This document shows, one piece after another, positions 8,077-47,200 of a DNA stretch of 64,000 nt (position 1 is the stretch's first letter; every line of letters begins with the position of its first letter). The position numbers and the translations under genes were made by a program. Source of the DNA: Streptomyces davaonensis JCM 4913 (GTDB taxonomy: Bacteria > Actinomycetota > Actinomycetes > Streptomycetales > Streptomycetaceae); the NCBI RefSeq assembly GCF_000349325.1, contig NC_020504.1, positions 5,552,053 through 5,616,052 of the forward strand, given 5' to 3'. Below the pieces are notes generated by a model. It did not search any database and was not told where the DNA came from. It saw nothing but the letters and a program-made list of their open reading frames with translations.

Positions 8077-8091
8077 ATGACGGACCGTCAG
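8077..8091. promoter_or_regulatory. 15-bp palindromic operator, copy 1
   Basis: ATGACGGACCGTCAG, which fits the window-wide consensus CTGACGG-N-CCGTCAG with one mismatch in the outer base. It is located between the divergent thiolase (start 8020) and acyl-CoA dehydrogenase (start 8113) genes. The odd-length dyad is the size of TetR-family sites. It includes an in-frame ATG at 8077, which is not the likely start. Confidence 0.75.
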
Positions 8092-8112
8092 ATCCGGAGG
8101 GAAGGGGCAGCG

Positions 8113-9291
8113 ATGGATGCCGGTTTCACCGCCGAACAGAACGAGATCCGCCGGACTCTGCGCGAACTGCTGCACAAGCGGTGCGGCCCGGAGGAGTTGC
8201 GCGCCGCCGTCGGCAGTCCCGCCGGACACGACCCGGTCCTGTGGACCGCCCTTTCCGACCAACTCGGCCTGCCGGGTCTTGCCCTGCCCGAGGCGTACGG
8301 CGGAGCAGGCTGCTCGGCGACGGAACTGGCCCTGGCGGCAGAGGAGTTGGGCCGCGCACTCGCCCCCACCCCCTTCCTCGCCACGGCGGCCCTCTCCGCC
8401 CCCCTGATCCTCGCCCTCGGCACCGAAGCCCAGCGCGCCGACCTCCTGCCCCACATCGCCGACGGTCTCCTCACCTGCACCCTGGCCGCCCCCACCCGCT
8501 GCCTGGCGCTGACCGGCGACAACCGCGGGGACTGGGCCGGAGGCGGGCGCGCGGGCGGCGTCCAGGCCCGCCGATCGGGGGACAGCTGGCGCCTGTACGG
8601 CGAGATCGAGCACGTCCTCGACGGCCACACCGCCGGAACCCTCCTGGTGGCCGCCCACACCGGCGGCTACGCCCGCCCCCGCACCGACCTCTTCCTGGTC
8701 CCCGGGGGCGCCACCGGACTCCACCGGGTACGCCGGACCGCCCTCGACGCCACCCGCCCCCTGGCCCGACTCCAACTCCGCGACGTGGAGGCGACGTTGC
8801 TCGGGGAGGGGGACGCCGATGTCCCCGCCACCCTCGCCCGCCTCGGGAACACCACCGCCGCGGTCCTGTCCTGCGAGGCCGTAGGAGCCGCCGACCGAGC
8901 CCTGGAACTGACCGTGGACTACGCGAAACAACGCGAACAGTTCGGCCGCCCGATCGGCTCCTTCCAGGCCGTGAAGCACCGCCTGGCCGACGTCTACGTC
9001 CAGGTCCAGGCAGCGAGATCCGCCGCCTATTACGCGGCGTGGGCCGTTGAGGGTCTCCCTCAAGACCGCATCGGCGCCCTGGCCCTCGCCCAAGCCCTGG
9101 AAGCCCTGCGCTCTGCCGCAGGCGAGGCGATCCAACTGCACGGCGGGATCGGGTTCACCTGGGAGCACGACGTGCAGCTGTACTTCAAGCGGGCCGCAGG
9201 TGATGAGTTGCTGTTCGGGCCCGTGCACCGGCTTCGGGCGTACGCGGCCGATGTGGCACGGCTCTTCGAGGCGAAGGACGTGACGGTGTGA
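8113..9291 (+). CDS. Acyl-CoA dehydrogenase
   Basis: A 392-residue FAD-dependent acyl-CoA dehydrogenase. The start at 8113 follows a GAGGGAAGGGG ribosome site; the in-frame ATG at 8077 is inside the operator. The protein has the N-terminal helical domain (FTAEQNEIRRTLREL), GLPGLALPEAYGGAG, a central beta-domain, and the C-terminal helical block with the signatures YAKQREQFGRPIGSFQAVKH and AIQLHGGIGFTWEHDVQLY. In steroid pathways such proteins often work as heteromers of two subunits; only one is seen here. Its stop overlaps the next start (GTGA), so it forms an operon with the reductase-like gene. Confidence 0.9.
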   Translation: MDAGFTAEQNEIRRTLRELLHKRCGPEELRAAVGSPAGHDPVLWTALSDQLGLPGLALPEAYGGAGCSATELALAAEELGRALAPTPFLATAALSAPLILALGTEAQRADLLPHIADGLLTCTLAAPTRCLALTGDNRGDWAGGGRAGGVQARRSGDSWRLYGEIEHVLDGHTAGTLLVAAHTGGYARPRTDLFLVPGGATGLHRVRRTALDATRPLARLQLRDVEATLLGEGDADVPATLARLGNTTAAVLSCEAVGAADRALELTVDYAKQREQFGRPIGSFQAVKHRLADVYVQVQAARSAAYYAAWAVEGLPQDRIGALALAQALEALRSAAGEAIQLHGGIGFTWEHDVQLYFKRAAGDELLFGPVHRLRAYAADVARLFEAKDVTV

Positions 9292-9767
9292 TCGGCGTGC
9301 GGATGGTGCAGAAGGTGTCCTCGACGCGCGGCTTCGCCAAGGTCGCCCCGCATGTGATCCCGGCGCTCGACCGGGCCGTGCACCGGCTGACCCGGGGCCG
9401 GGTGCTGCTCAGCGCGCAGTTGTTGCCCGGGGTGATCCTCACCTCCACCGGCGCCCGCAGCGGACTGCCCCGGCGGACCCCGCTCGCCTGTATGCCGGAG
9501 CCGGAGAACGGGACCTGGATCCTGATCGGCTCCAACTTCGGCCGGCCGGGACATCCCGCCTGGACCGCCAACCTGCTCGCTCACCCCGACGCCGAGATCA
9601 GCTGGAAGGGCGCCGACATCGCCGTGACCGCGCGGCTCCTCCAGGGCGAGGAACGGGCGGCCGTATGGAAGGCGGCGCTCGCCTTCTGGCCGCCGTACGC
9701 CACCTATCAGGCGCGGGTGGAGCGGGAGATCCGGCTCTTCAGGGTCGTACGGAAGCCTTCGCCGTAG
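9288..9767 (+). CDS. Deazaflavin (F420)-dependent nitroreductase-family protein
   Basis: A 159-residue protein of the Ddn/nitroreductase family (PF04075 type). It has the split-barrel hallmarks GVILTSTGARSGLPRRTPL, WILIGSNFGRPGHPAWTANL and ALAFWPPYATYQARV. Characterised relatives reduce quinones, unsaturated bonds or nitro groups with F420H2. It starts with GTG overlapping the stop of the acyl-CoA dehydrogenase, which argues for a joint role, perhaps reducing or oxidising the same acyl substrate. fbiC for F420 precursor synthesis is in the same window. Confidence 0.85.
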   Translation: MIGVRMVQKVSSTRGFAKVAPHVIPALDRAVHRLTRGRVLLSAQLLPGVILTSTGARSGLPRRTPLACMPEPENGTWILIGSNFGRPGHPAWTANLLAHPDAEISWKGADIAVTARLLQGEERAAVWKAALAFWPPYATYQARVEREIRLFRVVRKPSP

Positions 9768-9770
9768 ACG

Positions 9771-10911: not shown

Positions 10912-10936
10912 GGCCGCGCAGCGCCGGACAGCACAG

Positions 10937-11011: not shown

Positions 11012-11659
11012 CTACTTCGTGGGCTTCTTGCCCGTCACGCCCAGATGCACCAACAGCGCCAGGTTCGGCTTGAGTTCGGCCTGCTTGACGCCCCAGGTCT
11101 GGAAGCCCTTCTGGTGCGAGGCCACCGCCGCGAGCATCGCGACGATCGAGCCCGCCACCGCGGCCGGGTTGACGTCCTTGTCGACCTTGCCCTTGGCCTG
11201 AAGCTCGGCGACCGCGTCCGCGAGGGAGTTGTTCACCGAGTTGAGGATCTTCATCCGGAGCTTGTAGAAGCGCTTGTCGCCCTCGGCGGCACCGAGGTCG
11301 ACCACGCGCAGGATCGCGTCGTTCTTCCGCCAGAACTCCAGGAATCCGTCGACGAGTTCCTGCGCGGTCTGCCAGCCGGACTTGCCGACCCAGGAGCGGC
11401 CCTCGAGGAGTTCGGTCAACCCGGCGCCCTCCGCGGCCATTTGCTCGGCGATCTCCAGGACGGCGCCCTCGACGTCCGGGAAGTACTGGTAGAAGGTGGC
11501 GGGCGAAGTGCCCGCCTTCCGGGCGACATCGATGACTTTGACGTCCCGGTAGGGGGAGGAGCTGAGCATCTCGCTGAGGCAGTCGAGCAGCTTCTGCCGG
11601 GTCGCCTGCCCACGCCGGCCGGCCACGCGGCCGTCGACGGTACGCACTTGTCCTGTCAT
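11012..11659 (-). CDS. TetR family transcriptional regulator
   Basis: A 215-residue regulator with an N-terminal TetR helix-turn-helix (residues about 17-65: RQKLLDCLSEML, VKVIDVARKAGTSPATFYQY, FPDVEGAVLEIAEQ) and an all-helical ligand domain. It is a single gene, divergent from kbpA, with 122 bases between starts. It is the only TetR gene close to the cluster of CTGACGG-N-CCGTCAG sites, and an imperfect copy overlaps its own start codon (11653-11667). Control of that regulon is possible but unproven. It could equally control the kbpA promoter. Confidence 0.88.
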   Translation of the reverse strand: MTGQVRTVDGRVAGRRGQATRQKLLDCLSEMLSSSPYRDVKVIDVARKAGTSPATFYQYFPDVEGAVLEIAEQMAAEGAGLTELLEGRSWVGKSGWQTAQELVDGFLEFWRKNDAILRVVDLGAAEGDKRFYKLRMKILNSVNNSLADAVAELQAKGKVDKDVNPAAVAGSIVAMLAAVASHQKGFQTWGVKQAELKPNLALLVHLGVTGKKPTK

Positions 11660-11667
11660 GCCGTCAG
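11653..11667. promoter_or_regulatory. Degenerate copy of the CTGACGG-N-CCGTCAG site
   Basis: CTGTCATGCCGTCAG: the right half-site CCGTCAG is perfect, and the left half keeps CTG-C. The sequence overlaps the start codon of the TetR gene, where binding would block its own expression. Three mismatches in the left arm make this a weak call. Confidence 0.3.
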
Positions 11668-11781
11668 CTTACCGAGGGGTGATCGGAGCGCGATTCGGCC
11701 GACTGCAAATGGGGTGCACGAGTGCCCAGAGGCTGGTGTGCCTGGTCTGCGCGGTGCGTAAGAGGCCGTTACTTTGGCGAC

Positions 11782-15720: not shown

Positions 15721-16494
15721 TCACCTCACGCGGTACTCCCCGGAGCGGCGGGCGGCGAACAACTCCGCCTGCCGCTCGGCGGCCAGATTCCCCAGGGCGA
15801 TGAGGTGAGGCGCCTGCCCGAGAACCTGGGCACGAGCGGCTTCCTGAGCGGCCCAGAGGGCACGGACGGTGCCCTGCACGGCGGCGGTGGGATACCCGGC
15901 GAGGACGGATGCGCACCGGACGGCCGCCGCCAAGTCCTTTTTGCTATCGGTGAGTTCGGAGACGAGCCCCACCTCATGGGCACGCCGGGCGGAGATCCGC
16001 TCGGCAGTACCCATCAGCATCATCCGCGCGAGCTCACCGGCGGGCATCCGCGTAGCCATGAGCATCGACTCGTAGGCGCTGACCATGCCGTAGGCGGTGT
16101 GCGGATCGAAGAACTCCGCGCTCGGGTCGGCGACGAGGAAATCGCACTCCGCCAGCAGATAGAAGGCCCCGCCGCAGGCCATCCCGTGCACGGCGGCGAC
16201 GACCGGCTTCCACAGATCGTTCGACTTGGGCCCGATGCCCAGCAGCGGATCGTCCTGCATGTACGGCGAGTTCGGCTGCGGCACGACGGCGTCCCGGTCG
16301 ATCCCCGTGCAGAAGGCCCGCGCCTCGGCACCGGTGAGAACGAGCGCACGAACGGAGTCGTCGAACCGGAACGCCCGCCAGGCATCGGTGAGTTCGCGTG
16401 CTGTGCCGAGGTCGATGGCATTGAGTCGGTCGGGCCGGTTGAGGGTGACGACGGCGACGCCACGGTCCTTGTCGATGCCGATCTCCAGGCTCAT
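15721..16494 (-). CDS. Enoyl-CoA hydratase/isomerase family protein
   Basis: A 257-residue crotonase-fold protein. It has VAVVTLNRPDRLNAID, the first oxyanion segment (LTGAEARAFCTGID) and the second (VHGMACGGAFYLLAECDF), with a trimerisation tail. The usual catalytic glutamate pair is not obvious: the region after FLVADPSAEFF reads DPHTAYGMVSAYES. Hydration of an enoyl-CoA or a related crotonase reaction is likely. Its ATG overlaps the stop of the DUF35 gene (ATGA), making it the third gene of a thiolase-DUF35-hydratase operon. Confidence 0.88.
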   Translation of the reverse strand: MSLEIGIDKDRGVAVVTLNRPDRLNAIDLGTARELTDAWRAFRFDDSVRALVLTGAEARAFCTGIDRDAVVPQPNSPYMQDDPLLGIGPKSNDLWKPVVAAVHGMACGGAFYLLAECDFLVADPSAEFFDPHTAYGMVSAYESMLMATRMPAGELARMMLMGTAERISARRAHEVGLVSELTDSKKDLAAAVRCASVLAGYPTAAVQGTVRALWAAQEAARAQVLGQAPHLIALGNLAAERQAELFAARRSGEYRVR

Positions 16495-16907
16495 GGCCGC
16501 TCCAGAACCCACTGCGGAAGCCCTCCCGCCCCGAACACCACCTGCACCCGCGCCCCGATGCGCACCCGGTCAGGCGGCACGGCGTCGAGCGGATCACCGG
16601 CCCGCGTCACGAGATTGCCGACCATCCGGATCCGCGGCGCGTCGACCAGCTCGACGAGCACGACGTTGTACGGCGCCTGCGCCGCGTAGTCGGGCAGCAG
16701 GGGCGGATGGGGGACGACGTAGGACCAGATCCGCCCGTGTCCGCTCACCGCCCGCCACTCCTGCCCGAAGGACTGGCAGTGCGGGCAGCAGGGGCGGGGC
16801 GGGAACCGGAGTTCACCGCAGTCGGCGCAGGCCTGGACGCGGAGTTCGCCCTGGGCGGCGTACCGCCAGAAGGGGGCGCCGTCGGCGTCGGTGACGGGAG
16901 CGAGCAT
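16491..16907 (-). CDS. DUF35 OB-fold partner of the adjacent thiolase-fold protein
   Basis: A 138-residue DUF35 protein. The zinc ribbon is CADCGELRFPPRPCCPHCQ (about residues 27-45) and the OB fold follows (RIWSYVVPHPPLLPDYAAQ, APYNVVLVELVDAPRIRMVG). It lies 15 bases after the thiolase-fold gene and overlaps the hydratase start. In ChsH2-Ltp2 the DUF35 subunit binds the CoA substrate and forms a heteromeric retro-aldolase with the thiolase-fold subunit; the gene order here suggests the same type of complex. The zinc ligands are all present. Confidence 0.9.
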   Translation of the reverse strand: MLAPVTDADGAPFWRYAAQGELRVQACADCGELRFPPRPCCPHCQSFGQEWRAVSGHGRIWSYVVPHPPLLPDYAAQAPYNVVLVELVDAPRIRMVGNLVTRAGDPLDAVPPDRVRIGARVQVVFGAGGLPQWVLERP

Positions 16908-16922: not shown

Positions 16923-18071
16923 TCAGTTCCGTAGGAGCAGAGCGGAGGTGGGGACTCCCTCGCCCGCGGTGACGAGGCAGGAGGCGGCGCCCGGGACCTG
17001 GGCGGTACTCGTCCCGCGGAGCTGTTTGACGCCTTCGGTGATGAGGTTGAAGCCGTGGACGTACGCCTCGCTGAGCCCGCCGCCCCCGGTGTTCAACGGC
17101 AGCCGCCCGCCGATCTCCAGGGCCCCGCCCTCGGTGAAACTCCCGCCCTCCCCGCGCCCGCAGAAGCCGTAGCCCTCCAGGGAGAGCGGGACGAGCGGGG
17201 TGAAGGCGTCGTAGATCTGGGCGACGTCGATGTCCTGCGGGGTGAGGTCGGAGTGCTTCCACAGATGCCGGGCGGCGGTCCAGGCGGGCCCGGTGAGCGG
17301 GTCGTCGTTCCAGTAGTTGACCATGCCGTGGTGCTGGGCGGGCAGCCCTTGGGCGGCGGAGTGGACGTAGACGGCACGCCGGTCACAGTCCCGGGCCCGC
17401 TCGCGACTGACGACGACACAGGCCAACGCGCCGTCGCTCTCAAGGCAGTTGTCGTAGAGGCAGAGGGGCTCGCTGATCCAGCGGGAGGTCATGTACATCT
17501 CGCGGGTCAGGGGCCGGTCGTACATCACGGCCGCCGGGTTCTGGTTGGCGCGGTTGCGGCAGGCGAGGGCGACGTTGAAGAGATGGTCGCGGGTGGTGCC
17601 GTACTCGTGCATGTGGCGGCGGGCGAGCATGGCTATTTCGTCGACCGGCCGGAGGAGTCCGTAAGGGCGGGTCCACTGGGCGGGAGTGGGGAGTTGGCGG
17701 ACGGTGTCGGTCCAGGGCCGTGGCCCACTGCCCCGCTTGCGGGAGCGCCATGCAACCCCCACGGTGGCCTGCCCCGAGGCAATGGCGGCGGCGAGATGGG
17801 CGACGGTGGCACAGGAACCTCCGCCGCCGTAGCCGACTTTGCTGAAGAAGGTGAGATCACCGAGGCCGACCGCCTTGGCCAGCTCCACCTCATCGGTCTC
17901 TTCCATGGTGTAGGAGGCGAGCGCGTCGACCTCGCCCGGGGAGATCCCGGCGTCGTCCAGCGCGGCGAGGACGGCGCGGCAGGCGAGGGTGCGCTCGTCC
18001 TCGGGGAGTTGCTTGGCGAAGGGTGTCTGCCCGATCCCGACGATGGCGGTGGCGTCCTTGATTCCGGCCAT
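16923..18071 (-). CDS. Ltp2-like thiolase-fold aldolase subunit
   Basis: A 382-residue protein of the lipid-transfer thiolase family. The canonical nucleophile region reads VGYGGGGSCATVAHL with no NC-SG motif, and later motifs are CLESDGALACVVVS, IDVAQIYDAFTPLVPLSLEG, LNTGGGGLSEAYVHGFN and the end GEGVPTSALLLRN. These are features of Ltp2-type enzymes, in which tyrosines, one of them in the YDAFT region, replace thiolase chemistry and cleave a beta-hydroxyacyl-CoA side chain. Its DUF35 partner is directly downstream. It diverges from an acyl-CoA synthetase, with two palindromic operators in the 93-base gap. Confidence 0.88.
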   Translation of the reverse strand: MAGIKDATAIVGIGQTPFAKQLPEDERTLACRAVLAALDDAGISPGEVDALASYTMEETDEVELAKAVGLGDLTFFSKVGYGGGGSCATVAHLAAAIASGQATVGVAWRSRKRGSGPRPWTDTVRQLPTPAQWTRPYGLLRPVDEIAMLARRHMHEYGTTRDHLFNVALACRNRANQNPAAVMYDRPLTREMYMTSRWISEPLCLYDNCLESDGALACVVVSRERARDCDRRAVYVHSAAQGLPAQHHGMVNYWNDDPLTGPAWTAARHLWKHSDLTPQDIDVAQIYDAFTPLVPLSLEGYGFCGRGEGGSFTEGGALEIGGRLPLNTGGGGLSEAYVHGFNLITEGVKQLRGTSTAQVPGAASCLVTAGEGVPTSALLLRN

Positions 18072-18103: not shown

Positions 18104-18118
18104 CTGACAGGGCGTCAG
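18104..18118. promoter_or_regulatory. 15-bp palindromic operator, copy 2
   Basis: CTGACAGGGCGTCAG: perfect outer five bases on each side of the consensus CTGACGG-N-CCGTCAG. It is located 33 bases upstream of the aldolase-subunit start and its centre is 27 bases from the centre of copy 3, so both divergent promoters can be covered. Confidence 0.65.
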
Positions 18119-18130: not shown

Positions 18131-18145
18131 CTGACGGACAGTCAG
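18131..18145. promoter_or_regulatory. 15-bp palindromic operator, copy 3
   Basis: CTGACGGACAGTCAG: one mismatch to the consensus palindrome CTGACGG-N-CCGTCAG. It ends 19 bases before the GTG start of the acyl-CoA synthetase gene, where a repressor would occlude the promoter. Confidence 0.75.
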
Positions 18146-19756: not shown

Positions 19757-20209
19757 TCAGCCGAAGGCGCGAACGGCCTGGTAGTAGGTCCAGGCGGTGC
19801 TGTTGCAGGCGGTCTTGGTGGCGCCGCCGTAGTTGTTGCAGACGCGCTTGAGGTCCTCGTAGAAGGCGCTGTCGAGGCGGGACTTGTTGGCGCTGAAGGT
19901 GCCGGCGGCCTTGTAGTTGCGGTAGCCGAAGTCGTGGCGGGCGCAGGACATGGCGAACGGGAAGCCGAACGGGTTGTCCGGCGAGGAGGAGCAGTAGTCC
20001 GTGGACCAGTCGAACCCGTATGCGGCCCAGGCGCCCTGGTTGGCCCGGGCGGCGGCCCAGAGGTTGTAGCTGTACGCGCTGGTCTGGGTCCAACTGGCCA
20101 GCACCTGCGGCTTGTCGGCGGGGGCGGCGTCGGCCGCGGTCGCGGTGGCGACGACGGTGACGATCGCGAGGGTCGAGGTGGCAAGTGCGGTACCGAATCT
20201 GCGGTTCAT
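19757..20209 (-). CDS. Secreted prokaryotic phospholipase A2
   Basis: A 150-residue secreted enzyme. Start 20209 (MNRRFGTALATS) has a GGAGG ribosome site and a signal peptide cleaved near ADA-APADKP. The mature part has the catalytic His-Asp pair in CARHDFGYRNYKAAG, four cysteines and the ending STAWTYYQAVRAFG. This closely matches the Streptomyces violaceoruber phospholipase A2, which releases fatty acids from the sn-2 position of phospholipids and needs calcium. The convergent acyl-CoA synthetase stop is 29 bases away. The liberated fatty acids could feed the neighbouring catabolic genes, but that is inference. Confidence 0.95.
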   Translation of the reverse strand: MNRRFGTALATSTLAIVTVVATATAADAAPADKPQVLASWTQTSAYSYNLWAAARANQGAWAAYGFDWSTDYCSSSPDNPFGFPFAMSCARHDFGYRNYKAAGTFSANKSRLDSAFYEDLKRVCNNYGGATKTACNSTAWTYYQAVRAFG

Positions 20210-20947: not shown

Positions 20948-23902
20948 CTACGCTGCCGCAGCTGACGTGAGCAGTGCACGCGCCTCCTCGGCCTCCGGCG
21001 CGCTGTTCTGCTCGTAGAGGTTGAGCGCCTCACGCCAGCACGCCCGCGCCCTGTCCGCCTGACCGAGTGCGGACAGCGAACGCCCCAGCAGGGTCAGGAC
21101 GTTGCCCCGCATGCGGTCGCCGCCGATGCAGCCCAGCGCGAGAGCCTGCTCGGCATGCTGGGCAGCGTGCGCTGCGCGGTGCTCGGCCGCGTGCACCTCG
21201 GCGGTGCGGAAGTGGGTGACGCCTTCCCAGAGCCGCTGCCGATGGTCGTTGAAGAGGCCCAGTGCGTCGGAGAACTGGCTCAGAGCCTCCGTGTAACGGC
21301 CCGCCCGGGTCAGTGCGACGCCCAGCTGGAAGTGGCCGTTGGCGAGGCGCACGGTTCGGCCTACCTCGGTGTGCACGGCGAGACCGCTCTGGGCGATCTC
21401 CACGGCCTTCGCGATGTTGCCCAAGCCGAGGTGAGCACGGGACAGGTTGCCCAGGACGGTCGCCTCGAAGGGCCGGTTCCCCGTCGCGCGCAGACCTTCC
21501 AGGGCCTGGTCGAAGAAGACCTTGCCGTCGGCGAACCGGCTCTCGTGCAGGCAGATGAGACCTCGGTTGTTCGCGACCCAGCTGACGGCGATGGAATCGC
21601 GCGCGCTCGCCGCGAGCTCCATGGCGACGCGCGCCTCCTGTTCCGCCTCCCGGACACGGCCGGAGACCAGCAGCACATCGCTGAGCACCGTGCGGGCCCT
21701 GCCCTCCGCCCGTTCGTGACCCGCGACCCGGGTTGCCTCACAGGTGGCCTTGGCCGTCATCTCGTACTGATGCGAGTTGGCGCCCGACTCGGTCAGGTCC
21801 TTCGCCGCCCACAGCAGATCGACGGCGCGCCGCAGCCGCTCCGTCCCCGCTGCCTGACGTACGCAGGCCAACAGTTGTCCGGCCTCGGTATACAGCCAGT
21901 CGAGGGCCGTGGGTGCCTCGGTGAAGCGCAGCCCCGGATACCGGGTTGGCTCCAGGTGGTCGATCAGCCGGTCCTCGCCGTGCTCGATCGCATATACCTG
22001 CGCGGTCGTCGCCAAATAGAAGTCCAGCAACCGCGACAGAGCCGCCCCCCGCTCACTAGGCGGCCACTCATCCCTCTCCGCACAAGCACGCGCGTAGAGC
22101 CGAACAAGGTCATGGAACCGATACCGCCCCGGCGCCGCGGATTCCAGCAGCGAGGTGTCCACCAGGGACTCCAGGAGCTCCTCCGTCTCCTCCACCCCGA
22201 GATCGAGCAGCGCCGCAGCCGCAGCCAAAGAAATATCCGGCCCGTCCGCCAGCCCCAGCAACCGGAACGCCCGTGCCTGCGCCGGCTCCAGCTGGCCATA
22301 CCCCAGCTCGATCGTCGCCTTGACCGCCAAGTCCCCGGCCTGCAACTCGTCCAGTCGCCGTCGCTCGTCCCCGAGCTTCGCCGCCAGTACCGAGACCGTC
22401 CACGTGCGGCGGGCCGCGAGCCGTGACGCGGCGATGCGGATCGCCAGCGGCAGGAAGCCGCATGCCGCCACCACATCCAGCGCCGCCTCCCGCTCCGACG
22501 CCACCCGCTCCTCGCCCACGATCTTCGTGAACAAGGACAGCGCCTCGTCGGGGGACATCACATCCAGGTCCACCAGATGCGCCCCGGCCAGATCCACCAT
22601 CCGCACCCGCGACGTCACCAGCGCCGCGCACCCCGACGTCCCCGGCAGCAGGGGGCGTACCTGCGCCGCGTCCCTTGCGTTGTCCAGCAGCACCAGGACC
22701 CGCCGGCCGTCCAGCACCGAGCGGTACAGGGCCGCCCGCTCCTCCAAGGAGTCCGGGATCGCCGAGTCCGCCGTTCCCAAGGCCCGCAAGAAGGAGCCCA
22801 GTACCGTCTCCGGGTCCGCCGCCCTCGATCCCGCACCCTGCAAGTCCACGTACAGCTGGCCGTCGGGGAAGGCAGACCGTGCCTGGTGGGCCACGTGCAC
22901 CGCCAGCGTCGTCTTGCCCACACCCCCGATTCCCGCCAGCGCCGACACCGCCATCACCCGGCCCTCCGCCGACGCCAGCACATCGCTCAGCTCCGTGACG
23001 AAGGACGAGCGGCCCGTGAAGTCTGGGACTGTGGCAGGCAATTGCGCTGGGCGGACCGGGACCACCGCAGGTTCCGCCAGCGGAGCTGACGGTTCCGCCA
23101 AGCCCGGGTCCGCCTGCAAGATTCTCTGCTGGAGTTCCCGCAGCCCCGGCCGCGGGTCCACGCCCAACTCGTCCGCCAGCAGGCGCCGCGTGTCCGCGTA
23201 CACCGCAAGCGCCTCCGCCTGGCGGCCGGACCGGTACAGCGCCAGCATCAGCAGCTCACGCAACCGCTCCCGCAGCGGGTGCGCCGCCGTCAGTGCCGTC
23301 AGTTCCGAGACCGCCTCCGCGTGGCAGCCCTGTTCCAGGTCCATGTCCAGGCGGGACTCCAGCAATTGGAGTCGCCATTCCTCCAGGCGGACCCGTTGCG
23401 CCTCGGCGTAGGGGCCCGGTACGCCCGCCAGTGCCTCGCCGTCCCACAGGGACAGGACTCGGTTCAGTACGTCACGGGCGTGGCAGAGATCGCCCGTCCC
23501 GCGCGCCTTCTCCGCCTCCGTCGCCAGCTCCTGCGCCACCGAAAGGTCCAGCGCGCCCTCGCCCAGCGAACGCACCGCGTATCCGCCGGACTCGCTCGCC
23601 AGCACCCCGGGGTCCAGGACCTTGCGCAACCTCGACGCGTACGTCCGCAGCGCCGCCAGCGCCTGGGACGGTGGCTCCTCGCCCCACAGCGCGTCGATCA
23701 GCTCGGCCGCCGTGGCCGTACGGCCCTCCCGCAGCAGCAGGGCCGCGAGCAGGGCGCGTTGCTGGGGGGAGCCGGTGTTGAGTGCTTCCTCCCCGCGCCA
23801 GGCGCGCACCGGGCCGAGCACGCTGAAGCGCAGCGCCGTCGGCTCGGTTGAGCCGTCCCGGCCGCCACGCCGCTGCTCCGGCACCCGCGGTACACCGTCC
23901 AT
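20948..23902 (-). CDS. afsR: AfsR, SARP-type global regulator with NB-ARC and TPR domains
   Basis: A 984-residue regulator. The order is: winged-helix OmpR-like DNA-binding domain (about 25-115, LRFSVLGPVRAWR), BTAD domain (120-270), linker, NB-ARC ATPase with Walker A GIGGVGKTT near 324-332 and LVLLDNARDA, then a TPR-rich C-terminus. Start 23902 has a GGGGGA ribosome site and begins MDGVPRVPEQRR. AfsR is phosphorylated by AfsK and activates afsS, which lies directly downstream. Length matches the S. coelicolor protein (about 993). Confidence 0.95.
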   Translation of the reverse strand: MDGVPRVPEQRRGGRDGSTEPTALRFSVLGPVRAWRGEEALNTGSPQQRALLAALLLREGRTATAAELIDALWGEEPPSQALAALRTYASRLRKVLDPGVLASESGGYAVRSLGEGALDLSVAQELATEAEKARGTGDLCHARDVLNRVLSLWDGEALAGVPGPYAEAQRVRLEEWRLQLLESRLDMDLEQGCHAEAVSELTALTAAHPLRERLRELLMLALYRSGRQAEALAVYADTRRLLADELGVDPRPGLRELQQRILQADPGLAEPSAPLAEPAVVPVRPAQLPATVPDFTGRSSFVTELSDVLASAEGRVMAVSALAGIGGVGKTTLAVHVAHQARSAFPDGQLYVDLQGAGSRAADPETVLGSFLRALGTADSAIPDSLEERAALYRSVLDGRRVLVLLDNARDAAQVRPLLPGTSGCAALVTSRVRMVDLAGAHLVDLDVMSPDEALSLFTKIVGEERVASEREAALDVVAACGFLPLAIRIAASRLAARRTWTVSVLAAKLGDERRRLDELQAGDLAVKATIELGYGQLEPAQARAFRLLGLADGPDISLAAAAALLDLGVEETEELLESLVDTSLLESAAPGRYRFHDLVRLYARACAERDEWPPSERGAALSRLLDFYLATTAQVYAIEHGEDRLIDHLEPTRYPGLRFTEAPTALDWLYTEAGQLLACVRQAAGTERLRRAVDLLWAAKDLTESGANSHQYEMTAKATCEATRVAGHERAEGRARTVLSDVLLVSGRVREAEQEARVAMELAASARDSIAVSWVANNRGLICLHESRFADGKVFFDQALEGLRATGNRPFEATVLGNLSRAHLGLGNIAKAVEIAQSGLAVHTEVGRTVRLANGHFQLGVALTRAGRYTEALSQFSDALGLFNDHRQRLWEGVTHFRTAEVHAAEHRAAHAAQHAEQALALGCIGGDRMRGNVLTLLGRSLSALGQADRARACWREALNLYEQNSAPEAEEARALLTSAAAA

Positions 23903-24058: not shown

Positions 24059-24073
24059 CTGACGGACCGTCAG
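24059..24073. promoter_or_regulatory. 15-bp palindromic operator, copy 4 (perfect)
   Basis: CTGACGGACCGTCAG, a perfect dyad around the central A. It ends only 21 bases before the ATG at 24095, so a bound repressor would cover the core promoter or first transcribed bases. Confidence 0.8.
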
Positions 24074-24094: not shown

Positions 24095-25360
24095 ATGGAG
24101 ACCAAACCGACCGTGGAGGCCAAACCGACCACGGACACCCGACAGTCCCTTCCACTCATCATCTCCGTCGACGACCACACGGTGGAGCCCCCGCAGGTGT
24201 GGCAGGACCGGCTCCCGAAGAAGTACCTCGACATCGGGCCCCGTATCGTCCGCGCGCCCCTCAAGGAGATGACCTTCCTCGGCGGCCGCTTCAAGCCCGT
24301 CATGGGTGAGCGGGGCGGCGACGGGCCGATCGGCGACTGGTGGGTCTACGAAGATCTGCATCGGCCGCTCACCCGGCTCGACACCGCTGTCGGCTACGAC
24401 CGCGACGAGATCAAGCTGGAGGTCATCACCTACGAGCAGATGCGCAAGGGCTCGTACGACGTCCCGGCCCGCCTCGCCGACATGGACGTCAACCACGTCC
24501 AGTCCGCCCTCTGCTTCCCGACCTTCCCGCGCTTCTGCGGCCAGACCTTCACCGAGGCCACAGACCACGAACTCGGACTCCTCTGCATCCGCGCCTACAA
24601 CGACTGGATGGTGGAGGAGTGGTGCGGGCCCAGCGCCCGAGGGCGGCTCATACCCCTCACCCTCATTCCTCTCTGGGACGCCGAACTCGCCGCGGCCGAG
24701 GTGCGCCGCAACGCCGCCCGCGGCGTCCGTGCCGTCGCCTTCTCCGAGATACCCCCGCACCTCGGGCTCCCCTCCGTCCACACCGACGCCTGGGACCCCT
24801 TCCTCGCCGCCTGCGACGAGACCGGCACGGTCGTCGCCATGCACATCGGCTCCAGCAGCCGGATGCCCTCCACCTCCGCCGACGCCCCGCCCGCCGTCGG
24901 CTCCACCATCACCTTCGCCAACTGCTGCTTCTCGATGGTGGACTGGCTGATGAGCGGCAAGTTCGAGCGCTTCCCGAACCTCAAGGTGATGTACGCGGAA
25001 GGGCAGATCGGATGGATTCCGTACATCCTTGAGCGCGCCGATGTCGTCTGGGAGGAGAACCGGGGGTGGGGCGGGGTCGCCGACAAGGTGCACCGGCCGC
25101 CGTCCGAGCTCTTCGCCGATCATGTCTACGGCTGTTTCTTCGACGATGCCTTCGGGCTGAAGAACCTGGACGCCATCGGTCTGAACAACGTCCTCTACGA
25201 GACCGACTACCCGCACTCCGACTCCACCTGGCCCAAGTCCCGCGAGGTCGGCGAGGCCCAGATGGGGCACCTGGACGCGGATGTGGTCGAGAAGATCGTC
25301 CGGGGCAACGCCATCGAGCTGCTCCAGCTCACCCCCGAGGGCCTGTGGAGCGGCACGTGA
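24095..25360 (+). CDS. Amidohydrolase family 2 (ACMSD-like) metal-dependent hydrolase
   Basis: A 421-residue TIM-barrel amidohydrolase (PF04909 type). The first metal motif is SVDDHTVEPPQVWQDR instead of the classical HxH. Later motifs are SALCFPTFPRFCG, VVAMHIGSS for a metal-binding His, VMYAEGQIGWIPYILERAD, and VLYETDYPHSDSTWP with the closing Asp and His. Relatives decarboxylate or hydrolyse ring-cleavage products. ATG 24095 is used; a GTG nine bases upstream is also in frame. No good ribosome site is present, so translation may be leaderless. The stop overlaps the next start (GTGA). Confidence 0.88.
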   Translation: METKPTVEAKPTTDTRQSLPLIISVDDHTVEPPQVWQDRLPKKYLDIGPRIVRAPLKEMTFLGGRFKPVMGERGGDGPIGDWWVYEDLHRPLTRLDTAVGYDRDEIKLEVITYEQMRKGSYDVPARLADMDVNHVQSALCFPTFPRFCGQTFTEATDHELGLLCIRAYNDWMVEEWCGPSARGRLIPLTLIPLWDAELAAAEVRRNAARGVRAVAFSEIPPHLGLPSVHTDAWDPFLAACDETGTVVAMHIGSSSRMPSTSADAPPAVGSTITFANCCFSMVDWLMSGKFERFPNLKVMYAEGQIGWIPYILERADVVWEENRGWGGVADKVHRPPSELFADHVYGCFFDDAFGLKNLDAIGLNNVLYETDYPHSDSTWPKSREVGEAQMGHLDADVVEKIVRGNAIELLQLTPEGLWSGT

Positions 25361-26271
25361 AGTACGGCATCCAGCTCCCGATCCAGTCCCAGAGCACCCT
25401 CTACGCCGAGCCCTGGGAGGCCGCCGCCGGCCCCGAGGACCTGCTCGCCATCGCCCGGGCCGCCGACCGCGCGGGCTTCTCCTACGTCGCCTCCTGCGAC
25501 CACGTAGCCATCCCGCGCCGCCTCGCCTCCGCGATGAGCACGATCTGGTACGACCCCGTCGCCACCCTCGCCTTCCTGGCCGCGGCCACCGAGCGCGTAC
25601 GGCTGCTCAGCCATGTCGCCGTGGTCGGCCTCCGCCACCCCCTGCTCACCGCCAAGCAGTACGCCACCCTCGACCACCTCTCCGGCGGACGGCTGGTCCT
25701 GGGCGTGGGCGCCGGTCATGTGGAGGAGGAGTTCAGCGCGCTGGGCGTGGACTTCGCGCATCGGGGCGCCGTACTGGACGAGTGCATGGACGCGTTGCGC
25801 GCCGCGCTCGGGCCGGAGGAGTTTCCCGAACACCACGGCAAGCTCTACGACTTCGAGGGGCTCGGGCAGTTGCCGAGGCCCGCGCAGGAGCACGTCCCGT
25901 TGTGGGTCGGTGGCTCCTCGCCCGCCGCCGTGCGCCGGGCCGCCCTCAAGGGGGACGGCTGGCTGCCGCAGGGCGACCCACGGGACCGCTTGCCGCAGCA
26001 GATCGCCCGTATCCGGGAACTTCGTGAACAGGCCGGACGGCAGGGCCCCTTCACCATCGGCGCCATCGCCGAACCCCTCTACATCGGTACCCCGTCGTGG
26101 CACGTCGGCCGCCGCACGCTCACCGGCGCCCCGGCCGAACTCGCCGAGTCGCTGCGGGCGTACCGCGCGATGGGCGTGGACCAGATCCAGGTGCGGTTCC
26201 GCAGCCGGAACCGGGACGAACTCATCGACCAGATCGCGGCGTTCGGCGCCGACGTGGGATCCCAGCTGTAA
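25357..26271 (+). CDS. LLM-class F420-dependent oxidoreductase
   Basis: A 304-residue bacterial luciferase-like protein starting at GTG 25357, overlapping the upstream stop. The barrel motifs are present: YVASCDHVAIPRR, RVRLLSHVAVVGLRHPLL, KQYATLDHLSGGRLVLGVG and a C-terminal GAPAELAESLRAYRAMGVDQIQ. The TIGR03619-like pattern points to F420 rather than FMN as cofactor, though this cannot be proved from the sequence. Second gene of an amidohydrolase-LLM-SDR operon. Confidence 0.88.
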   Translation: MKYGIQLPIQSQSTLYAEPWEAAAGPEDLLAIARAADRAGFSYVASCDHVAIPRRLASAMSTIWYDPVATLAFLAAATERVRLLSHVAVVGLRHPLLTAKQYATLDHLSGGRLVLGVGAGHVEEEFSALGVDFAHRGAVLDECMDALRAALGPEEFPEHHGKLYDFEGLGQLPRPAQEHVPLWVGGSSPAAVRRAALKGDGWLPQGDPRDRLPQQIARIRELREQAGRQGPFTIGAIAEPLYIGTPSWHVGRRTLTGAPAELAESLRAYRAMGVDQIQVRFRSRNRDELIDQIAAFGADVGSQL

Positions 26272-30051: not shown

Positions 30052-31493
30052 GCCGGGGTCTGTTCATCGGCGGGGCCTGGGTCGAGCCCGAGGGCGGCTT
30101 CTACGACGTCCTCGACCCGGCGACCGAGGGGACCGTCGGCCCGGCTCCCGAGGCCTCGCAGGATCAGGTGCAGGCGGCCTGTGCAGCGGCCCGCGAGGCG
30201 CTCGGGTCCTGGTCGCGGACGGCGCCCGAAGAGCGGGCCGCGATCCTCGGCCGAGCCGCGGACCTGATCCGGGACCGGCTCGTGCCGTACGTCGAACTGG
30301 CGCAGGCGGAGACGGGGGCGACCACCGGCACCGCTCGCGCGATGCAGGTCGGAGTGGCCGCGGCCCGGTTCCGGCGGTACTCGCGGGTGGAGCCCGCCGA
30401 GTGGGCGATCGCGCCGCAGATCAACGAGGCGGGGCCGATGGGGAAGGCCGGGGTGATGGGCGCGCTGGCCGTACGGCAGCCGGTCGGGGTCGTCGCCTGC
30501 ATCTCCTCGTACAACAACCCGTGGGCCAACGCCGCCGGGAAGATCGCGCCCGCGCTGGCCATGGGCAACACGGTCGTGGTGAAGCCCGCCCCGCAGGACC
30601 CGCTGTCCGTCTACCGCATGGCGGAGGCGCTGGCGGAGGCCGGGGTGCCGCCGGGCGTGGTGAACGTGGTCTCCGGCGCCTCGGCGGAGGTCGGGGAGGC
30701 CGTCGTCGCCGCCCCGGACGTCGACATGGTCAGCTTCACCGGCTCCACGGCCGTGGGCCGCCGTATCGCGGAGGTGTGCGGCCGAGAGATGAAACGCCAG
30801 TTGATGGAGCTGGGAGGGAAGGGCGCGGCACTGGTCCTGGGCGACGCCGACATCGCCTCGGCCGTGTCCGGGATCGGCACGACCTTCTCCTTCTACAGCG
30901 GCCAGATCTGCACCGCACCGACCCGTGTGCTTGCCCACCGGTCGGTGTACGACCGACTGGTCGAGCAACTGGCCGCCTACGCGAGCCGGTTGAAGGTCGG
31001 TAACCCCCGGGAGCCGGACACGGTGGTCGGCCCGGTGATCTCGGCGGCACACCGGGACCGGGTGGAGTCGTACGTCGAACTGGGGCGGAAGGAGGGAGCG
31101 GTGGTGGTGGCAGGAGGCGAACGCCCGGGAGCGGACGTGGGCTTCTACATCACCCCCACCCTGCTCGCCGACTGCACGAACGACATGAGGGTCGCACGGG
31201 AGGAGATCTTCGGCCCGGTCGTCTGCGTGATCCCCTTCGAGGAGGAGGAAGAGGGCATCGCCCTCGCCAATGACACGGACTACGGCCTGATCGACTACGT
31301 CTGGTCCCGCGACGTCGCACGGGCCTTCCGTATCGCCCGACGCCTCCGCGCCGGAGGCGTCGGCGTCAACACGGTGGGCCGCAACATGGAGGCGCCCTTC
31401 GGCGGCTTCAAGAAGAGCGGGGTCGGCCGGGACGTCGGCTCCTACGCCCTGCACGCCTACAGCGAGGTGCAGTCGATCGTCTGGCCGGGGTAG
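30048..31493 (+). CDS. Aldehyde dehydrogenase
   Basis: A 481-residue NAD(P)-dependent aldehyde dehydrogenase with a GTG start overlapping the upstream stop. It has VACISSYNNPW for cofactor contact, FTGSTAVGRRI, the general base in MELGGKG, and the nucleophile in YSGQICTAPTR. The end is FGGFKKSGVGRD. It oxidises an aldehyde to the acid, which a ligase such as the one at 18165 could then activate. That link is an inference from shared operators. Confidence 0.93.
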   Translation: MSRGLFIGGAWVEPEGGFYDVLDPATEGTVGPAPEASQDQVQAACAAAREALGSWSRTAPEERAAILGRAADLIRDRLVPYVELAQAETGATTGTARAMQVGVAAARFRRYSRVEPAEWAIAPQINEAGPMGKAGVMGALAVRQPVGVVACISSYNNPWANAAGKIAPALAMGNTVVVKPAPQDPLSVYRMAEALAEAGVPPGVVNVVSGASAEVGEAVVAAPDVDMVSFTGSTAVGRRIAEVCGREMKRQLMELGGKGAALVLGDADIASAVSGIGTTFSFYSGQICTAPTRVLAHRSVYDRLVEQLAAYASRLKVGNPREPDTVVGPVISAAHRDRVESYVELGRKEGAVVVAGGERPGADVGFYITPTLLADCTNDMRVAREEIFGPVVCVIPFEEEEEGIALANDTDYGLIDYVWSRDVARAFRIARRLRAGGVGVNTVGRNMEAPFGGFKKSGVGRDVGSYALHAYSEVQSIVWPG

Positions 31494-31509: not shown

Positions 31510-31902
31510 TCAGGTGTCCAGGTCCACGCGTACGGTCAGCAGCTGTGCGCCGATCGCCCGGACCGCCGCGCTGTTGAAGCGAGGCAGGGTCCGCAGCCGT
31601 GCCACCGGGTCGTCGTCCGGCATCAGATGGGCCGTGCCCGTGTGCCAGCGGCCGTGGATGCGGACCCGCACCTTCGGGTCGGCCACGATGTTGCGCACGT
31701 ACTGCGAACGCTCGCCGAACTCCGAGACCAGCCAGAAGGAGTCGCCCACGCGCCGCCCGCCGACCGGGGTGCGGCGCGGCAGGCCCGAGGTGCGGCCCGT
31801 GGTCTCCAGCAGGGTGTGGTTCGGCAGTCGGCGCATGACGGCGTTGAGCCGGCGCTGAAAGGCCGTGACGGCCCGGTACTTGCGCTCGATGCTGCGGGGC
31901 AT
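31510..31902 (-). CDS. Ddn-type deazaflavin-dependent nitroreductase family protein
   Basis: A 130-residue protein of the same F420/quinone-reductase family as the one at 9288. Hallmarks: LLETTGRTSGLPRRTPVGGRR split as two strands, SFWLVSEFGERSQYVRNI and VRVRIHGRWHTGTAHL. Start 31902 (MPRSIERKYR) has an AGGAGC ribosome site; longer frames cross the promoter of the divergent gene. It converges with the aldehyde dehydrogenase (16 bases between stops). Confidence 0.85.
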   Translation of the reverse strand: MPRSIERKYRAVTAFQRRLNAVMRRLPNHTLLETTGRTSGLPRRTPVGGRRVGDSFWLVSEFGERSQYVRNIVADPKVRVRIHGRWHTGTAHLMPDDDPVARLRTLPRFNSAAVRAIGAQLLTVRVDLDT

Positions 31903-35309: not shown

Positions 35310-37922
35310 ATGACGACTTCGGCGACGAACGGAACCGGCCCCACCGACCGCCCCGGCGGCAGCGGTCCGACCGAGAACTCCATGCGTCGCGCCCTGAAAC
35401 GAGCAAGGGACGGCGTCGCCCTCGACGTCACCGAGGCGGCCGTGCTGCTCCAAGCACGGGGCGAGGCCCTCACCGACCTCACCGCGTCCGCCGCCCGAGT
35501 ACGCGACGCCGGTCTCGAACAAGCAGGCCGCCCCGGCGTCATCACGTACTCCAAGAGCGTCTTCATCCCCCTCACCCGGCTCTGCCGTGACAAGTGCCAC
35601 TACTGCACCTTCGTCACGGTCCCCGGCAAGCTGCGCCGCGCAGGGCACGGGATGTTCATGTCCCCGGACGAGGTGCTGGACATCGCCCGCAAGGGCGCCG
35701 CCCTCGGCTGCAAGGAAGCCCTCATCACCCTCGGCGACAAGCCCGAGGACCGCTGGCCCGAGGCCAGGGAGTGGCTGGACGCCCACGGGTACGACGACAC
35801 CATCGCCTACGTCCGCGCGATCTCCATCCGGATCCTGGAGGAGACGGGACTGCTCCCGCACCTCAACCCGGGCGTCATGAGCTGGACCGACTTCCAGCGG
35901 CTCAAGCCCGTCGCACCCTCCATGGGCATGATGCTGGAGACCACCGCCACCCGCCTGTGGTCGGAGCCCGGCGGCCCCCACCACGGCTCCCCGGACAAGG
36001 AACCGGCCGTCCGCCTGCGCGTCCTGGAGGACGCCGGCCGTTCGTCCGTGCCCTTCACCTCGGGAATCCTGATCGGCATCGGCGAGACGTACGAGGAGCG
36101 TGCCGAGTCCCTCTTCGCCCTCCGCAAGATCTCCCGCGCCTACCACGGCATCCAGGAACTGATCATCCAGAACTTCCGGGCCAAGCCGGACACGGCGATG
36201 CGCGGCATGCCGGACGCGGAACTGGACGAGCTGGTCGCGACCGTGGCCGTCGCCCGGCACCTCATGGGTCCGAGTGCCTGCCTTCAGGCCCCGCCGAACC
36301 TCGTGGACTCCGAGTACGAGCGGCTCATCGGCGCCGGGATCGACGACTGGGGCGGGGTCTCCCCGCTGACCATCGACCATGTGAACCCCGAGCGGCCCTG
36401 GCCGCAGATCGAGGAGCTGGCCGAGCGTTCCCGCACCGCCGGGTTCGAGCTGCGTGAACGGCTGTGCGTGTACCCGGAGTTCGTGCGCCGCGGAGAGCCC
36501 TGGCTGGACCCGCGGCTGCGCCCGCACGTGGCGGCGCTGGCGGACCCGGAGACGGGCCTCGCCCTGGAGAGTGCCGTCGTGGAGGGGCGCCCCTGGCAGG
36601 AGCCCGAGGAGGCGTTCGAGGCGAGCGGCCGTACGGATCTGCACGCCACGATCGACACCGAGGGCCGTACGTCCGACCGGCGCGACGACTTCGACGAGGT
36701 GTACGGCGACTGGGGCGCCCTGCGCGAGGCCGCCGCGCCCGGCATGGTCCCGGAGCGCATCGACACCGACGTCCGGGCTGCCCTGGCGACGGCGGCCGAC
36801 GACCCGACGAAGCTGACGGACGCCGAGGCCCTCGCGCTGCTGCACGCCGACGGACCGGCACTGGACGCGCTGACCCGGATCGCCGACGACGTCCGCAGGG
36901 CGGCGGTCGGCGACGATGTGACGTACATCGTCACGCGGAACATCAACTTCACGAACGTCTGCTACACCGGCTGCCGCTTCTGCGCCTTCGCCCAGCGCCG
37001 CACGGACGCCGACGCCTACACGCTCTCCTTGGAGCAGGTCGCCGACCGGGCCCAGCAGGCCTGGGACGTGGGCGCGGTGGAGGTCTGCATGCAGGGCGGG
37101 ATCCATCCCGACCTGCCGGGGACGGCGTACTTCGACATCGCGCGGGCGGTGAAGGCCCGGGTCCCCGGGATGCATGTGCACGCCTTCTCGCCGATGGAGG
37201 TCGTCAACGGCGCCACCCGCACCGGCATGCCGATCCGCGAGTGGCTGACCGCGGCCAAGGAGGCGGGCCTGGACTCGATCCCCGGCACGGCGGCGGAGAT
37301 CCTGGACGACGAGGTCCGCTGGGTGCTCACCAAGGGCAAGCTGCCCACGGCGACCTGGATCGAGGTGATCACCACGGCGCACGAGCTGGGCATCCGCTCC
37401 TCCTCGACGATGATGTACGGCCATGTCGACCAGCCGCGCCACTGGCTCGCCCACTTCCGCACCCTGGCCCGCATCCAGCAACAGACAGGCGGCTTCACGG
37501 AGTTCGTGACGCTCCCCTTCATCCACACCAACGCGCCGGTGTACCTCGCCGGCATCGCACGCCCCGGCCCGACCATCCGCGACAACCGCGCGGTGACGGC
37601 GATGGCCCGCCTCCTCCTGCACCCGCACATCCCCAACATCCAGACGAGCTGGGTGAAGCTCGGCGCGGAGGGCGCGGCGGAGATGCTCCGCTCGGGCGCC
37701 AACGACCTCGGCGGCACGTTGATGGAGGAGACGATCTCCCGGATGGCGGGTTCCTCGTACGGCTCCTACAAGTCGGTCAAGGATCTTGTCGCGGTGGCCG
37801 AGGCGGCAGGCCGCCCCGCTCGCCCGCGCACCACGCTGTACGGCGAGGTCCCGGAGGAACGGCAGCGGGCGGCGGTGGCCTCGGACGGGCACCTGCCGGA
37901 GCTGCTGCCGGTGCTGGACTGA
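35310..37922 (+). CDS. fbiC: FO synthase, bifunctional CofG/CofH radical SAM enzyme
   Basis: An 870-residue fused radical SAM enzyme that makes FO (7,8-didemethyl-8-hydroxy-5-deazariboflavin), the chromophore of coenzyme F420, from a flavin precursor and tyrosine. The two iron-sulfur motifs are CX3CX2C at residues 92-99 (CRDKCHYC) and 551-558 (CYTGCRFC), one in each half. The CofG half has [13 protein letters not shown]; the CofH half has [13 protein letters not shown] and [13 protein letters not shown]. Fusion in a single chain is the actinobacterial form. Cofactor supply for the five F420-family enzymes in this window is a natural role. Confidence 0.96.
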
Positions 37923-46241: not shown

Positions 46242-46367
46242 GTGCGCCCTCCCAGGGTTCGACCCGGCGCTCATCGTGGGCGCTGCCTCGTGAACACGAC
46301 AAGTGAGCGTAAGGTCAAGGGGAGGTAAAAGTATTCGCGATGGTGGTTCCGGTTTATGTATGTGAAC

Positions 46368-47156
46368 TCAACGCATCAGCTCCCCCGCGTTGACCAGCAA
46401 CGATTGTCCGGTGATCGCTCGCGCCCGATCCGACACCAGGAACACCGCCGCATCCGCCACATCACCGTCCGTGGCCAGCTCCGGCAGTGCCATCCGGTCC
46501 GTCAGCCGCTTCAGCACGGCAGGCTCCCCGACCCCTTCCGTCTGCGCGGTGAATTGGACGTACGCCTGCACCGGCGGCCCCCACATCCAGCCCGGCAGCA
46601 CGGTGTTGACCCGGATCCGCTCCGGGCCCAGCTCCCGCGCCAGCGAGTACATCGCGCTGGTCAACGCTCCCTTGGACGCGGCGTACGCGGCCTGCCGCAC
46701 TTGTGAGGGCGCCGCCACCGCCGACTGCGTCCCGATGAACACCACCGAGCCGCCGCCGCCCGACTTCAGCGCCGGAAGGCACGCCCGCGTCATCCGCAGC
46801 GAGCCGAGCAGGTTCACGTCGAGCACCGACTGCCAGGTGGTGAAGTCCGCGTCCGCCAGGCCGCCGAAGTAGCTGTCCCAGGCGGCCACATGGACGACCC
46901 CGTCGATCCGCCCGAACCGCTCCAGCGCCAGCCCCGCCAGCGCCTCGCACTGCCGCTCGTCGGTGATGTCCGTCGTCCGGTACGCGGTGTGCGCCCCGCC
47001 CGGATCGATCTCCGCCGCGCTCTTGGCGAGGTTGGCCTCCGTCCGCGCCCCGAGGACCGCGTTCCCGCCGTCCCGTACGACCGCCGCCGCGATCTGATGG
47101 CCGAGTCCGGGCCCGACCCCCGACACGACCACGGTCCTGTCCGCGAGCAGTGCCAT
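46368..47156 (-). CDS. SDR family oxidoreductase
   Basis: A 262-residue short-chain dehydrogenase starting MALLADRTVVVSGVGPGLG with a GGAGGGG ribosome site. The cofactor loop is the GxGxGxG variant SGVGPGLG; the catalytic region is SVVFIGTQSA then YAASKGAL, with a C-terminal PGWMWGPPVQAYVQF. Divergent from the EthD-like gene at 47238, with a palindromic operator (47186-47200) in the 81-base gap, so it likely belongs to the same regulon as the catabolic genes at 8-31 kb. Confidence 0.9.
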   Translation of the reverse strand: MALLADRTVVVSGVGPGLGHQIAAAVVRDGGNAVLGARTEANLAKSAAEIDPGGAHTAYRTTDITDERQCEALAGLALERFGRIDGVVHVAAWDSYFGGLADADFTTWQSVLDVNLLGSLRMTRACLPALKSGGGGSVVFIGTQSAVAAPSQVRQAAYAASKGALTSAMYSLARELGPERIRVNTVLPGWMWGPPVQAYVQFTAQTEGVGEPAVLKRLTDRMALPELATDGDVADAAVFLVSDRARAITGQSLLVNAGELMR

Positions 47157-47185
47157 TTCGTCCCCTCCTGTCCCTGGACCTCTAT

Positions 47186-47200
47186 CTGACGGAGCGTCAG
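47186..47200. promoter_or_regulatory. 15-bp palindromic operator, copy 7
   Basis: CTGACGGAGCGTCAG: one mismatch to the consensus dyad. It is located between the divergent SDR (start 47156) and EthD-like (start 47238) genes, 20 kb away from the other copies. Confidence 0.75.

Follow-up and report, generated by a model that had tools for sequence, protein, structure and literature searches.

A palindrome at catabolic promoters in the afsK-afsR region of Streptomyces davaonensis and a TetR-family candidate for its regulator

The window analysed here is a stretch of 64,000 nucleotides from Streptomyces davaonensis JCM 4913, positions 5552053-5616052 of contig 1 in a genome of 9.56 Mb on two contigs. 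Its gene content fits the afsK-afsR region of Streptomyces, with a Pkinase/PQQ protein encoded at 12703, a BTAD/NB-ARC/TPR protein at 20948, an FbiC-like protein at 35310 and a TetR-family gene beside the kinase, as SCO4421 is reported to lie near afsK (PMC3878966). A short palindrome recurs here at the promoters of catabolic-type genes, one of them shared with an afsR-like gene. We propose that this palindrome is very probably the operator of the TetR protein encoded at 11012-11659, a PF19352 protein resembling SCO4421, which would repress the catabolic units until released by a ligand.

The palindrome and the genes behind it

Graded against the dyad CTGACGG-N-CCGTCAG, the window holds seven sites, all intergenic, and no other intergenic place in it with two or fewer mismatches:

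8077-8091: one mismatch; between the thiolase-like gene 6872-8020 (minus) and the acyl-CoA dehydrogenase gene 8113-9291 (plus)
18104-18118: two mismatches, core perfect; 17-bp spacing to TAATCT towards the acyl-CoA ligase gene
18131-18145: one mismatch, core perfect; 17-bp spacing to TAACCT towards the minus-strand Ltp2-like operon
24059-24073: perfect; between the afsR-like gene (minus) and the amidohydrolase gene (plus), with CTGACG 17 bp before TACCGT
27073-27087: two mismatches, core perfect; before an LLM gene
27130-27144: one mismatch; before an LLM gene
47186-47200: one mismatch, core perfect; between an SDR gene (minus) and the gene of unrecognised family at 47238 (plus)

With at most one mismatch the window contains five matches, while 300 palindromes with matching half-site composition average 0.05 and reach 1 at most. 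All five are intergenic, against an intergenic fraction of 0.115 (p 2e-5), as are seven of the eight matches with at most two mismatches (p 1.9e-6; the single coding match is at 4067) and 13 of 14 in the window plus flanks (144 kb, p 1.6e-11). A loose scan allowing three mismatches did not rise above chance: it gave 15 matches, a number reached by 21 of 100 shuffles, where 11.7 are expected. The signal sits in the good matches, and the loose scan by itself would have dismissed the sites.

Alignment of the 13 sites in a 66-kb stretch that includes these seven showed CTGAC preceded by A at -2 and T at -1 and followed mostly by GG, with a centre rich in A/T. The resulting operator consensus is A-T-CTGACGG-W-CCGTCAG-A-T, with the core CTGAC-N5-GTCAG and A/T flanks. 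The strict 15-mer was dropped as a consensus in favour of this core because the inner bases vary in the orthologous footprint. The original prediction had placed and graded the seven sites correctly (one perfect, four with one mismatch, two with two), and its remark that no other promoter type in the window has the motif agrees with our search. Its palindrome stands, while its half-site was drawn too narrowly; its claim that each copy precedes a catabolic gene or a divergent pair is right as to promoter position, except that one partner of the site at 24059 is afsR-like and not catabolic.

The genes concerned are as follows:

246-716, plus: second ChsH2-like DUF35 protein, behind an operator about 219 bp before the window
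6872-8020, minus: thiolase-like protein (Thiolase_C_1)
8113-9291, plus: acyl-CoA dehydrogenase; closest to Tcur3481 in PDB and, under the cut-off, to IpdE2 in NCBIfam
9288-9767, plus: F420H2-dependent quinone reductase-like protein, probably in the same operon as the 8113 gene
15721-16494, minus: crotonase (ECH_1)
16491-16907, minus: ChsH2-like DUF35 protein
16923-18071, minus: Ltp2-like aldolase/thiolase; best PDB match 6ok1, "lipid-transfer protein", 333 bits
18165-19727, plus: acyl-CoA ligase (AMP-binding)
20948-23902, minus: AfsR-like regulator (BTAD, NB-ARC, TPR), divergent from the amidohydrolase gene
24095-25360, plus: amidohydrolase_2; best PDB matches DitZ 8uyr, then PtmU3 6omp
25345-26271, plus: F420-dependent LLM oxidoreductase (TIGR03619, over cut-off)
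26283-27053, plus: SDR
27185-28303, plus: LLM oxidoreductase
28318-30051, plus: amidohydrolase_3, probably in the transcription unit of the 27185 LLM gene
30048-31493, plus: aldehyde dehydrogenase, probably in that same unit
46368-47156, minus: SDR of subfamily NF005909 (over cut-off)
47238-48080, plus: protein of unrecognised family

By sequence, the target enzymes resemble those of steroid side-chain or diterpenoid CoA catabolism. We take 6ok1 to be Ltp2, and DitZ and PtmU3 to be diterpenoid-pathway proteins; the first acyl-CoA dehydrogenase at a pair of sites upstream of the window (-18837 and -18761) has as its best PDB matches Tcur3483 and 4x28, presumably FadE26-FadE27. From these nearest solved relatives, we infer side-chain or ring CoA chemistry on a steroid- or terpenoid-like compound. 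The gene at 47238-48080 had been called EthD-like, a label that finds no support, as the protein has no sequence match in Pfam, NCBIfam or PDB. A 305-aa gene before the window (L032:13680-14597) likewise matched nothing in these three collections, and BLASTP between the two proteins gave no clear kinship beyond a short stretch (E 0.009).

Among the LLM genes lie an FbiC-like F420 biosynthesis gene (35310-37922), with no operator before it, and two F420H2 quinone-reductase-like genes (9288-9767 and 31510-31902). A prokaryotic phospholipase A2 gene (19757-20209) sits between the ligase gene and the afsR side.

Conservation of the sites and extent of the regulon

Orthologous promoters keep the palindrome. 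The amidohydrolase is present in 43 of 61 Streptomyces genomes, and the 30 best-scoring of these 43 loci were fetched, picked by protein and not by motif. A site lies just upstream of the gene in 29 of the 30 (L318 is the single locus without one), against an average of 0.05 of 30 for shuffled upstreams, which here and for the TetR loci below preserve base content and not dinucleotides. Across the 29 loci the outer CTGAC/GTCAG is invariant and the inner bases vary. Loci found by the motif itself repeat the same promoter pairs, namely afsR/amidohydrolase, LLM/SDR, SDR/47238 gene, and flavin reductase/gene of unrecognised family. Genes for dehydrogenase, amidohydrolase, crotonase and ligase appear at three of them, from Acidimicrobiales, Acidimicrobiaceae or Microthrixaceae records (L098, L099, L084). 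Of 135 sites in the motif-found loci retained, 88 are intergenic and 47 coding. In 20 oriented sites of this genome and its relatives the operator is at most 250 bp from an AfsR-like start, and because of this closeness afsR may feel the same regulator.

Genome-wide, CTGACNNNNNGTCAG occurs at 41 places against 8 for a reversed control, and 11 of the 41 fall within the 66-kb stretch (p 4.5e-15), which is bounded by its own outermost sites. It begins about 19 kb before the window, with the following sites (negative positions count back from the window start), and distant members lie elsewhere in the genome:

-18837 and -18761: between an acyl-CoA ligase gene and two acyl-CoA dehydrogenase genes
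-14380: between a cyclase gene and an SDR gene
-6385: between a flavin reductase gene and a gene of unrecognised family
-2313: before an ADP-forming-type acyl-CoA synthetase gene
-219: between a gene of unrecognised family and a DoxX-like/DUF35 gene pair

Among 32 fetched places with at most one mismatch and an A/T centre, 25 were called intergenic and 7 coding by a simple purpose-made gene caller. Outside the stretch 16 of 23 good matches are intergenic (p 2.5e-10), and six of these 16 flank enzymes that fit such pathways; an additional core site (L044) precedes an LLM gene. Some of the other ten are probably chance matches:

Beside fitting enzymes: amidohydrolase (L013), MaoC-DUF35 (L014), P450 (L026), LLM-like (L027), Ltp-type thiolase (L035), nitronate monooxygenase (L036)
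Remaining ten: between convergent genes (L002, L003); universal stress protein (L006); ABC-type gene (L011); sigma factor ending at the site (L015); phosphodiesterase (L029); DUF7064 (L034); gene without a Pfam family (L024); without annotation (L007, L009)

The genome scan that the original prediction had proposed as a check shows a promoter bias outside the stretch too. Together with the conservation of orthologous promoters and some distant sites before similar enzyme types, it supports the idea of one dispersed catabolic regulon, with a larger extent than the range 8077-47200 first assigned to the motif.

Two pairs of core palindromes at distant places of contig 1 (C1), 2237315 with 8127412 and 2753316 with 7803627, have identical inner bases. 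TetR_N matches at C1:32243-32377 and 9434243-9434377 have equal E-values, and each is exactly as far from its own end of the contig as the other, the pattern of a linear chromosome whose terminal inverted repeats span 32 kb or more.

A PF19352 TetR protein as the probable reader

The candidate regulator and the imperfect site at its start are:

11012-11659, minus: proposed regulator, TetR family with a PF19352 C-terminal domain, in a position matching SCO4421 as described near afsK
11653-11667, minus: imperfect operator overlapping the TetR start codon (gene-strand sequence CTGACGGCATGACAG), with three mismatches, a perfect left half and a weak right half

The protein matches the TetR N-terminal helix-turn-helix PF00440 at 26.8 bits (curated cut-off 24) and the TetR_C_38 ligand domain PF19352 at 242.5 bits (cut-off 23.9). 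Its AlphaFold2 model (pLDDT 91.8) has ten helices in the all-helical, two-domain TetR fold, and EthR is among the best structural matches listed, together with further TetR-type regulators. In 23 PF19352 family members, some of them from outside Streptomycetaceae at 34-52% identity, the recognition helix SPATFYQYF shows no variation except at the proline (at least 90%). Near-identical proteins carry Streptomyces names, and a search of 150 Streptomyces found the TetR in 149.

Outside Streptomycetaceae, 4 of 20 loci (L266, L269, L284, L289) have a site 58-84 bp ahead of the alignable TetR start, where 0.019 per 20 loci are expected from shuffled upstreams and about 0.3 from any 120-bp window of those loci (14 of 1065). 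In a further locus (L265) a site lies between an LLM gene and the TetR gene pair, and neighbours of these TetR genes include LLM, ligase, SDR, DUF35/Ltp2-like and crotonase genes.

Across the phylum, motif and protein family occur together. A draw of 246 genomes held 17 carriers of PF19352 and 229 non-carriers, with at most 16 candidates scored per genome, so that carriers may be missed. Motif excess, defined as forward minus reversed control of at least 4, a threshold picked after the counts were seen and applied to counts transcribed by hand, was found in 13 of the 17 carriers against 10 of the 229 non-carriers (Fisher 1.6e-12), and in 6 of 9 carriers against the same 10 of 229 when the genus Streptomyces was left out (2.5e-6). 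Conversely, 19 of 22 genomes picked for holding the motif carry PF19352, or 10 of 13 without the nine whose TetR is 66-89% identical to that of the window, where the comparison rate is 9 of 238 genomes outside the genus in the general draw. Co-occurrence, the conserved recognition helix and the adjacent sites outside Streptomyces thus support the earlier guess that this TetR is the regulator, while falling short of proof.

Several operators overlap core promoters, which suggests repression. Over 184 site-gene pairs, orthologs included, sites lie a median of 49.5 bp from the gene start. TANNNT elements peak at +16 and +23 after weighting by target group, a re-count that corrects for the amidohydrolase orthologs, which inflate the +23 peak of -10-like sites in the raw data. 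We infer that a TetR dimer would bind over or near the core promoters of the acyl-CoA ligase, acyl-CoA dehydrogenase, Ltp2/ChsH2-like, crotonase, amidohydrolase, LLM and SDR units and would thereby block RNA polymerase. A hydrophobic pathway intermediate, most likely the CoA thioester of a steroid- or terpenoid-like compound, may then fill an EthR-like pocket and free the protein from its operator.

Besides the two limits of the draw just named, several points weigh against this TetR as the reader. It is near-universal in Streptomyces though 18 of 61 genomes lack the amidohydrolase, and one genome (G088) has the TetR but almost no motif excess (8 against 5). A strong autoregulatory site, sought in the 30 best-scoring Streptomyces TetR loci, appeared only as a half-perfect one with three to four mismatches, and at 16 of the 20 loci outside Streptomycetaceae the near upstream region contains no match with two or fewer mismatches. 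Three of the 22 motif-picked genomes (those of L116, L147 and L151) have no PF19352. Applied to the ten non-carriers with motif excess, a profile search picked up weak TetR relatives in four (G307, G199, G268, G234), with differing recognition helices in the three that were readable (G307, G199, G268), and no TetR_C_38 relative in the other six.

The same search in five other genomes gave a nearer relative with another helix in G212 (96 bits), weak matches in G393 (Nocardia), and no TetR_C_38 relative in G397 and G399; a within-class contrast around G173 took in five genomes, a sample not enlarged. Four genomes (G307, G338, G248, G199) lack a PF19352 match at E 1e-8 and have 7-12 motif matches with at most one mismatch against 0 in controls; there the word may be read by a different regulator. 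Given these weak or absent relatives and the carriers without targets, the family may also act on other targets, and other proteins may recognise words of this sort.

At the TetR gene, the start codon sits in CTGACG[G/A/T]C-ATGACAG, with a perfect or near-perfect left half-site and a weak right one, and its CTGACG is kept in all 30 fetched Streptomyces loci and in 5 of 5 from Kitasatospora/Yinghuangia. A TAAGCT lies six bases before the ATG in the fetched Streptomyces loci (window 11640-11700), a closeness that suggests a leaderless transcript. The element GTAA-n-CTGACG at this promoter is kept into Yinghuangia while its surroundings diverge.

The best surviving alternative is that the operator is real but read by a regulator encoded elsewhere, the PF19352 TetR merely travelling with the catabolic genes. 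This would accommodate the presence of the TetR in nearly every Streptomyces irrespective of the amidohydrolase, the non-carriers with motif excess and the weak site at its own promoter, and the genome offers other candidates, with at least 126 TetR_N matches at E of at most 0.01 (150 of 360 candidates scored). We consider it unlikely. Among the 126 matches listed, none is closer than about 700 bp to a core-perfect place or a listed place with at most one mismatch (coordinates compared by eye), and the closest of them (7380420) is separated by about 710 bp from a place called coding; the sites immediately ahead of the TetR gene at four loci outside Streptomycetaceae, co-occurrence beyond the genus and the conserved helix also stand against it.

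Somewhat less likely still is that the regulator is an activator or acts both ways, with the palindrome as an upstream activating site. Some sites do lie 90-160 bp from the gene start. SAV3818, a TetR regulator near afsK in S. avermitilis, is presumably the counterpart of TetR 11012-11659. Its expression is said to stimulate antibiotic production, and PMC3742746 names it a positive regulator of avermectin production. The operators of the +16 and +23 peaks, by contrast, lie over the -35 box or the spacer, where an activator would clash, and the median distance is short. Chance or structural palindromes (terminators, repeat elements) in GC-rich DNA, as the loose scan, the 7 coding matches of 32 and at least two sites between convergent genes (L002, L003) might suggest, are already refuted for the main set by the 41 places against 8, the 16 of 23 intergenic matches and the 29 of 30 orthologous promoters, and this very improbable explanation holds for a minority of single genome-wide matches.

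Relation to known regulators and significance

TetR-controlled lipid catabolism is already known as a kind. KstR and KstR2 are TetR repressors of cholesterol regulons in mycobacteria and rhodococci, acting through a dispersed palindromic operator over acyl-CoA dehydrogenase, Ltp2/ChsH-type and ligase genes of steroid breakdown. Our proposed repressor shares with them the TetR fold and a dispersed palindrome over the same enzyme types, and differs, probably, in the operator sequence and also in its PF19352 domain, in its Streptomyces and Acidimicrobiales-type hosts and in a gene set rich in LLM and amidohydrolase genes. Orthology to the M. tuberculosis repressor EthR was rejected, as the match covers only about residues 15-99 (E 3.7e-6) and another TetR, 6srn, is no worse (2.8e-6). 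Sequence identity to EthR is low and the regulon here is dispersed; the EthR gene is divergent from the ethA monooxygenase gene, whereas the neighbours of TetR 11012-11659 are AsnC-, LysE-type and glyoxalase-like genes.

TetR 11012-11659 holds the same position near afsK as SCO4421, and their putative orthology rests on this position and on the gene order. SCO4421, a TetR of S. coelicolor, is described as being expressed in spores, at a reduced level when whiA is mutated, and as showing no phenotype on deletion, and the available portion of the report describes it without a target, operator or regulon (PMC3878966), all of which are proposed here for TetR 11012-11659. Searches of open-licence literature (motif letters, KstR3, SCO4421/SAV3818/afsK, DitZ/PtmU3, TetR steroid Ltp2) returned no report of this operator.

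A wider proposal, which we put forward tentatively as less likely than not, is that a single actinobacterial regulon predates the split between Streptomycetaceae and Acidimicrobiales-type lineages and degrades steroid- or terpenoid-like lipids under one PF19352 TetR. In Streptomyces the repressor would have joined the afsK-afsR locus, and the operator between afsR and the amidohydrolase gene would feed the state of lipid breakdown into antibiotic regulation.

The interest of these findings rests on a near-universal TetR without an assigned function and on its place at afsK-afsR. A function, an operator and a target list are now proposed for a gene of 149 of 150 Streptomyces, whose counterpart by position, SCO4421, is described as having no deletion phenotype (PMC3878966). 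The operator reveals a catabolic gene set scattered along the genome and unrecognisable as a single cluster. It also predicts a working PF19352 regulon in poorly cultured actinobacteria, where it could assign genes to a pathway, and, with a site next to afsR, a possible connection of lipid breakdown to antibiotic control can be tested directly.

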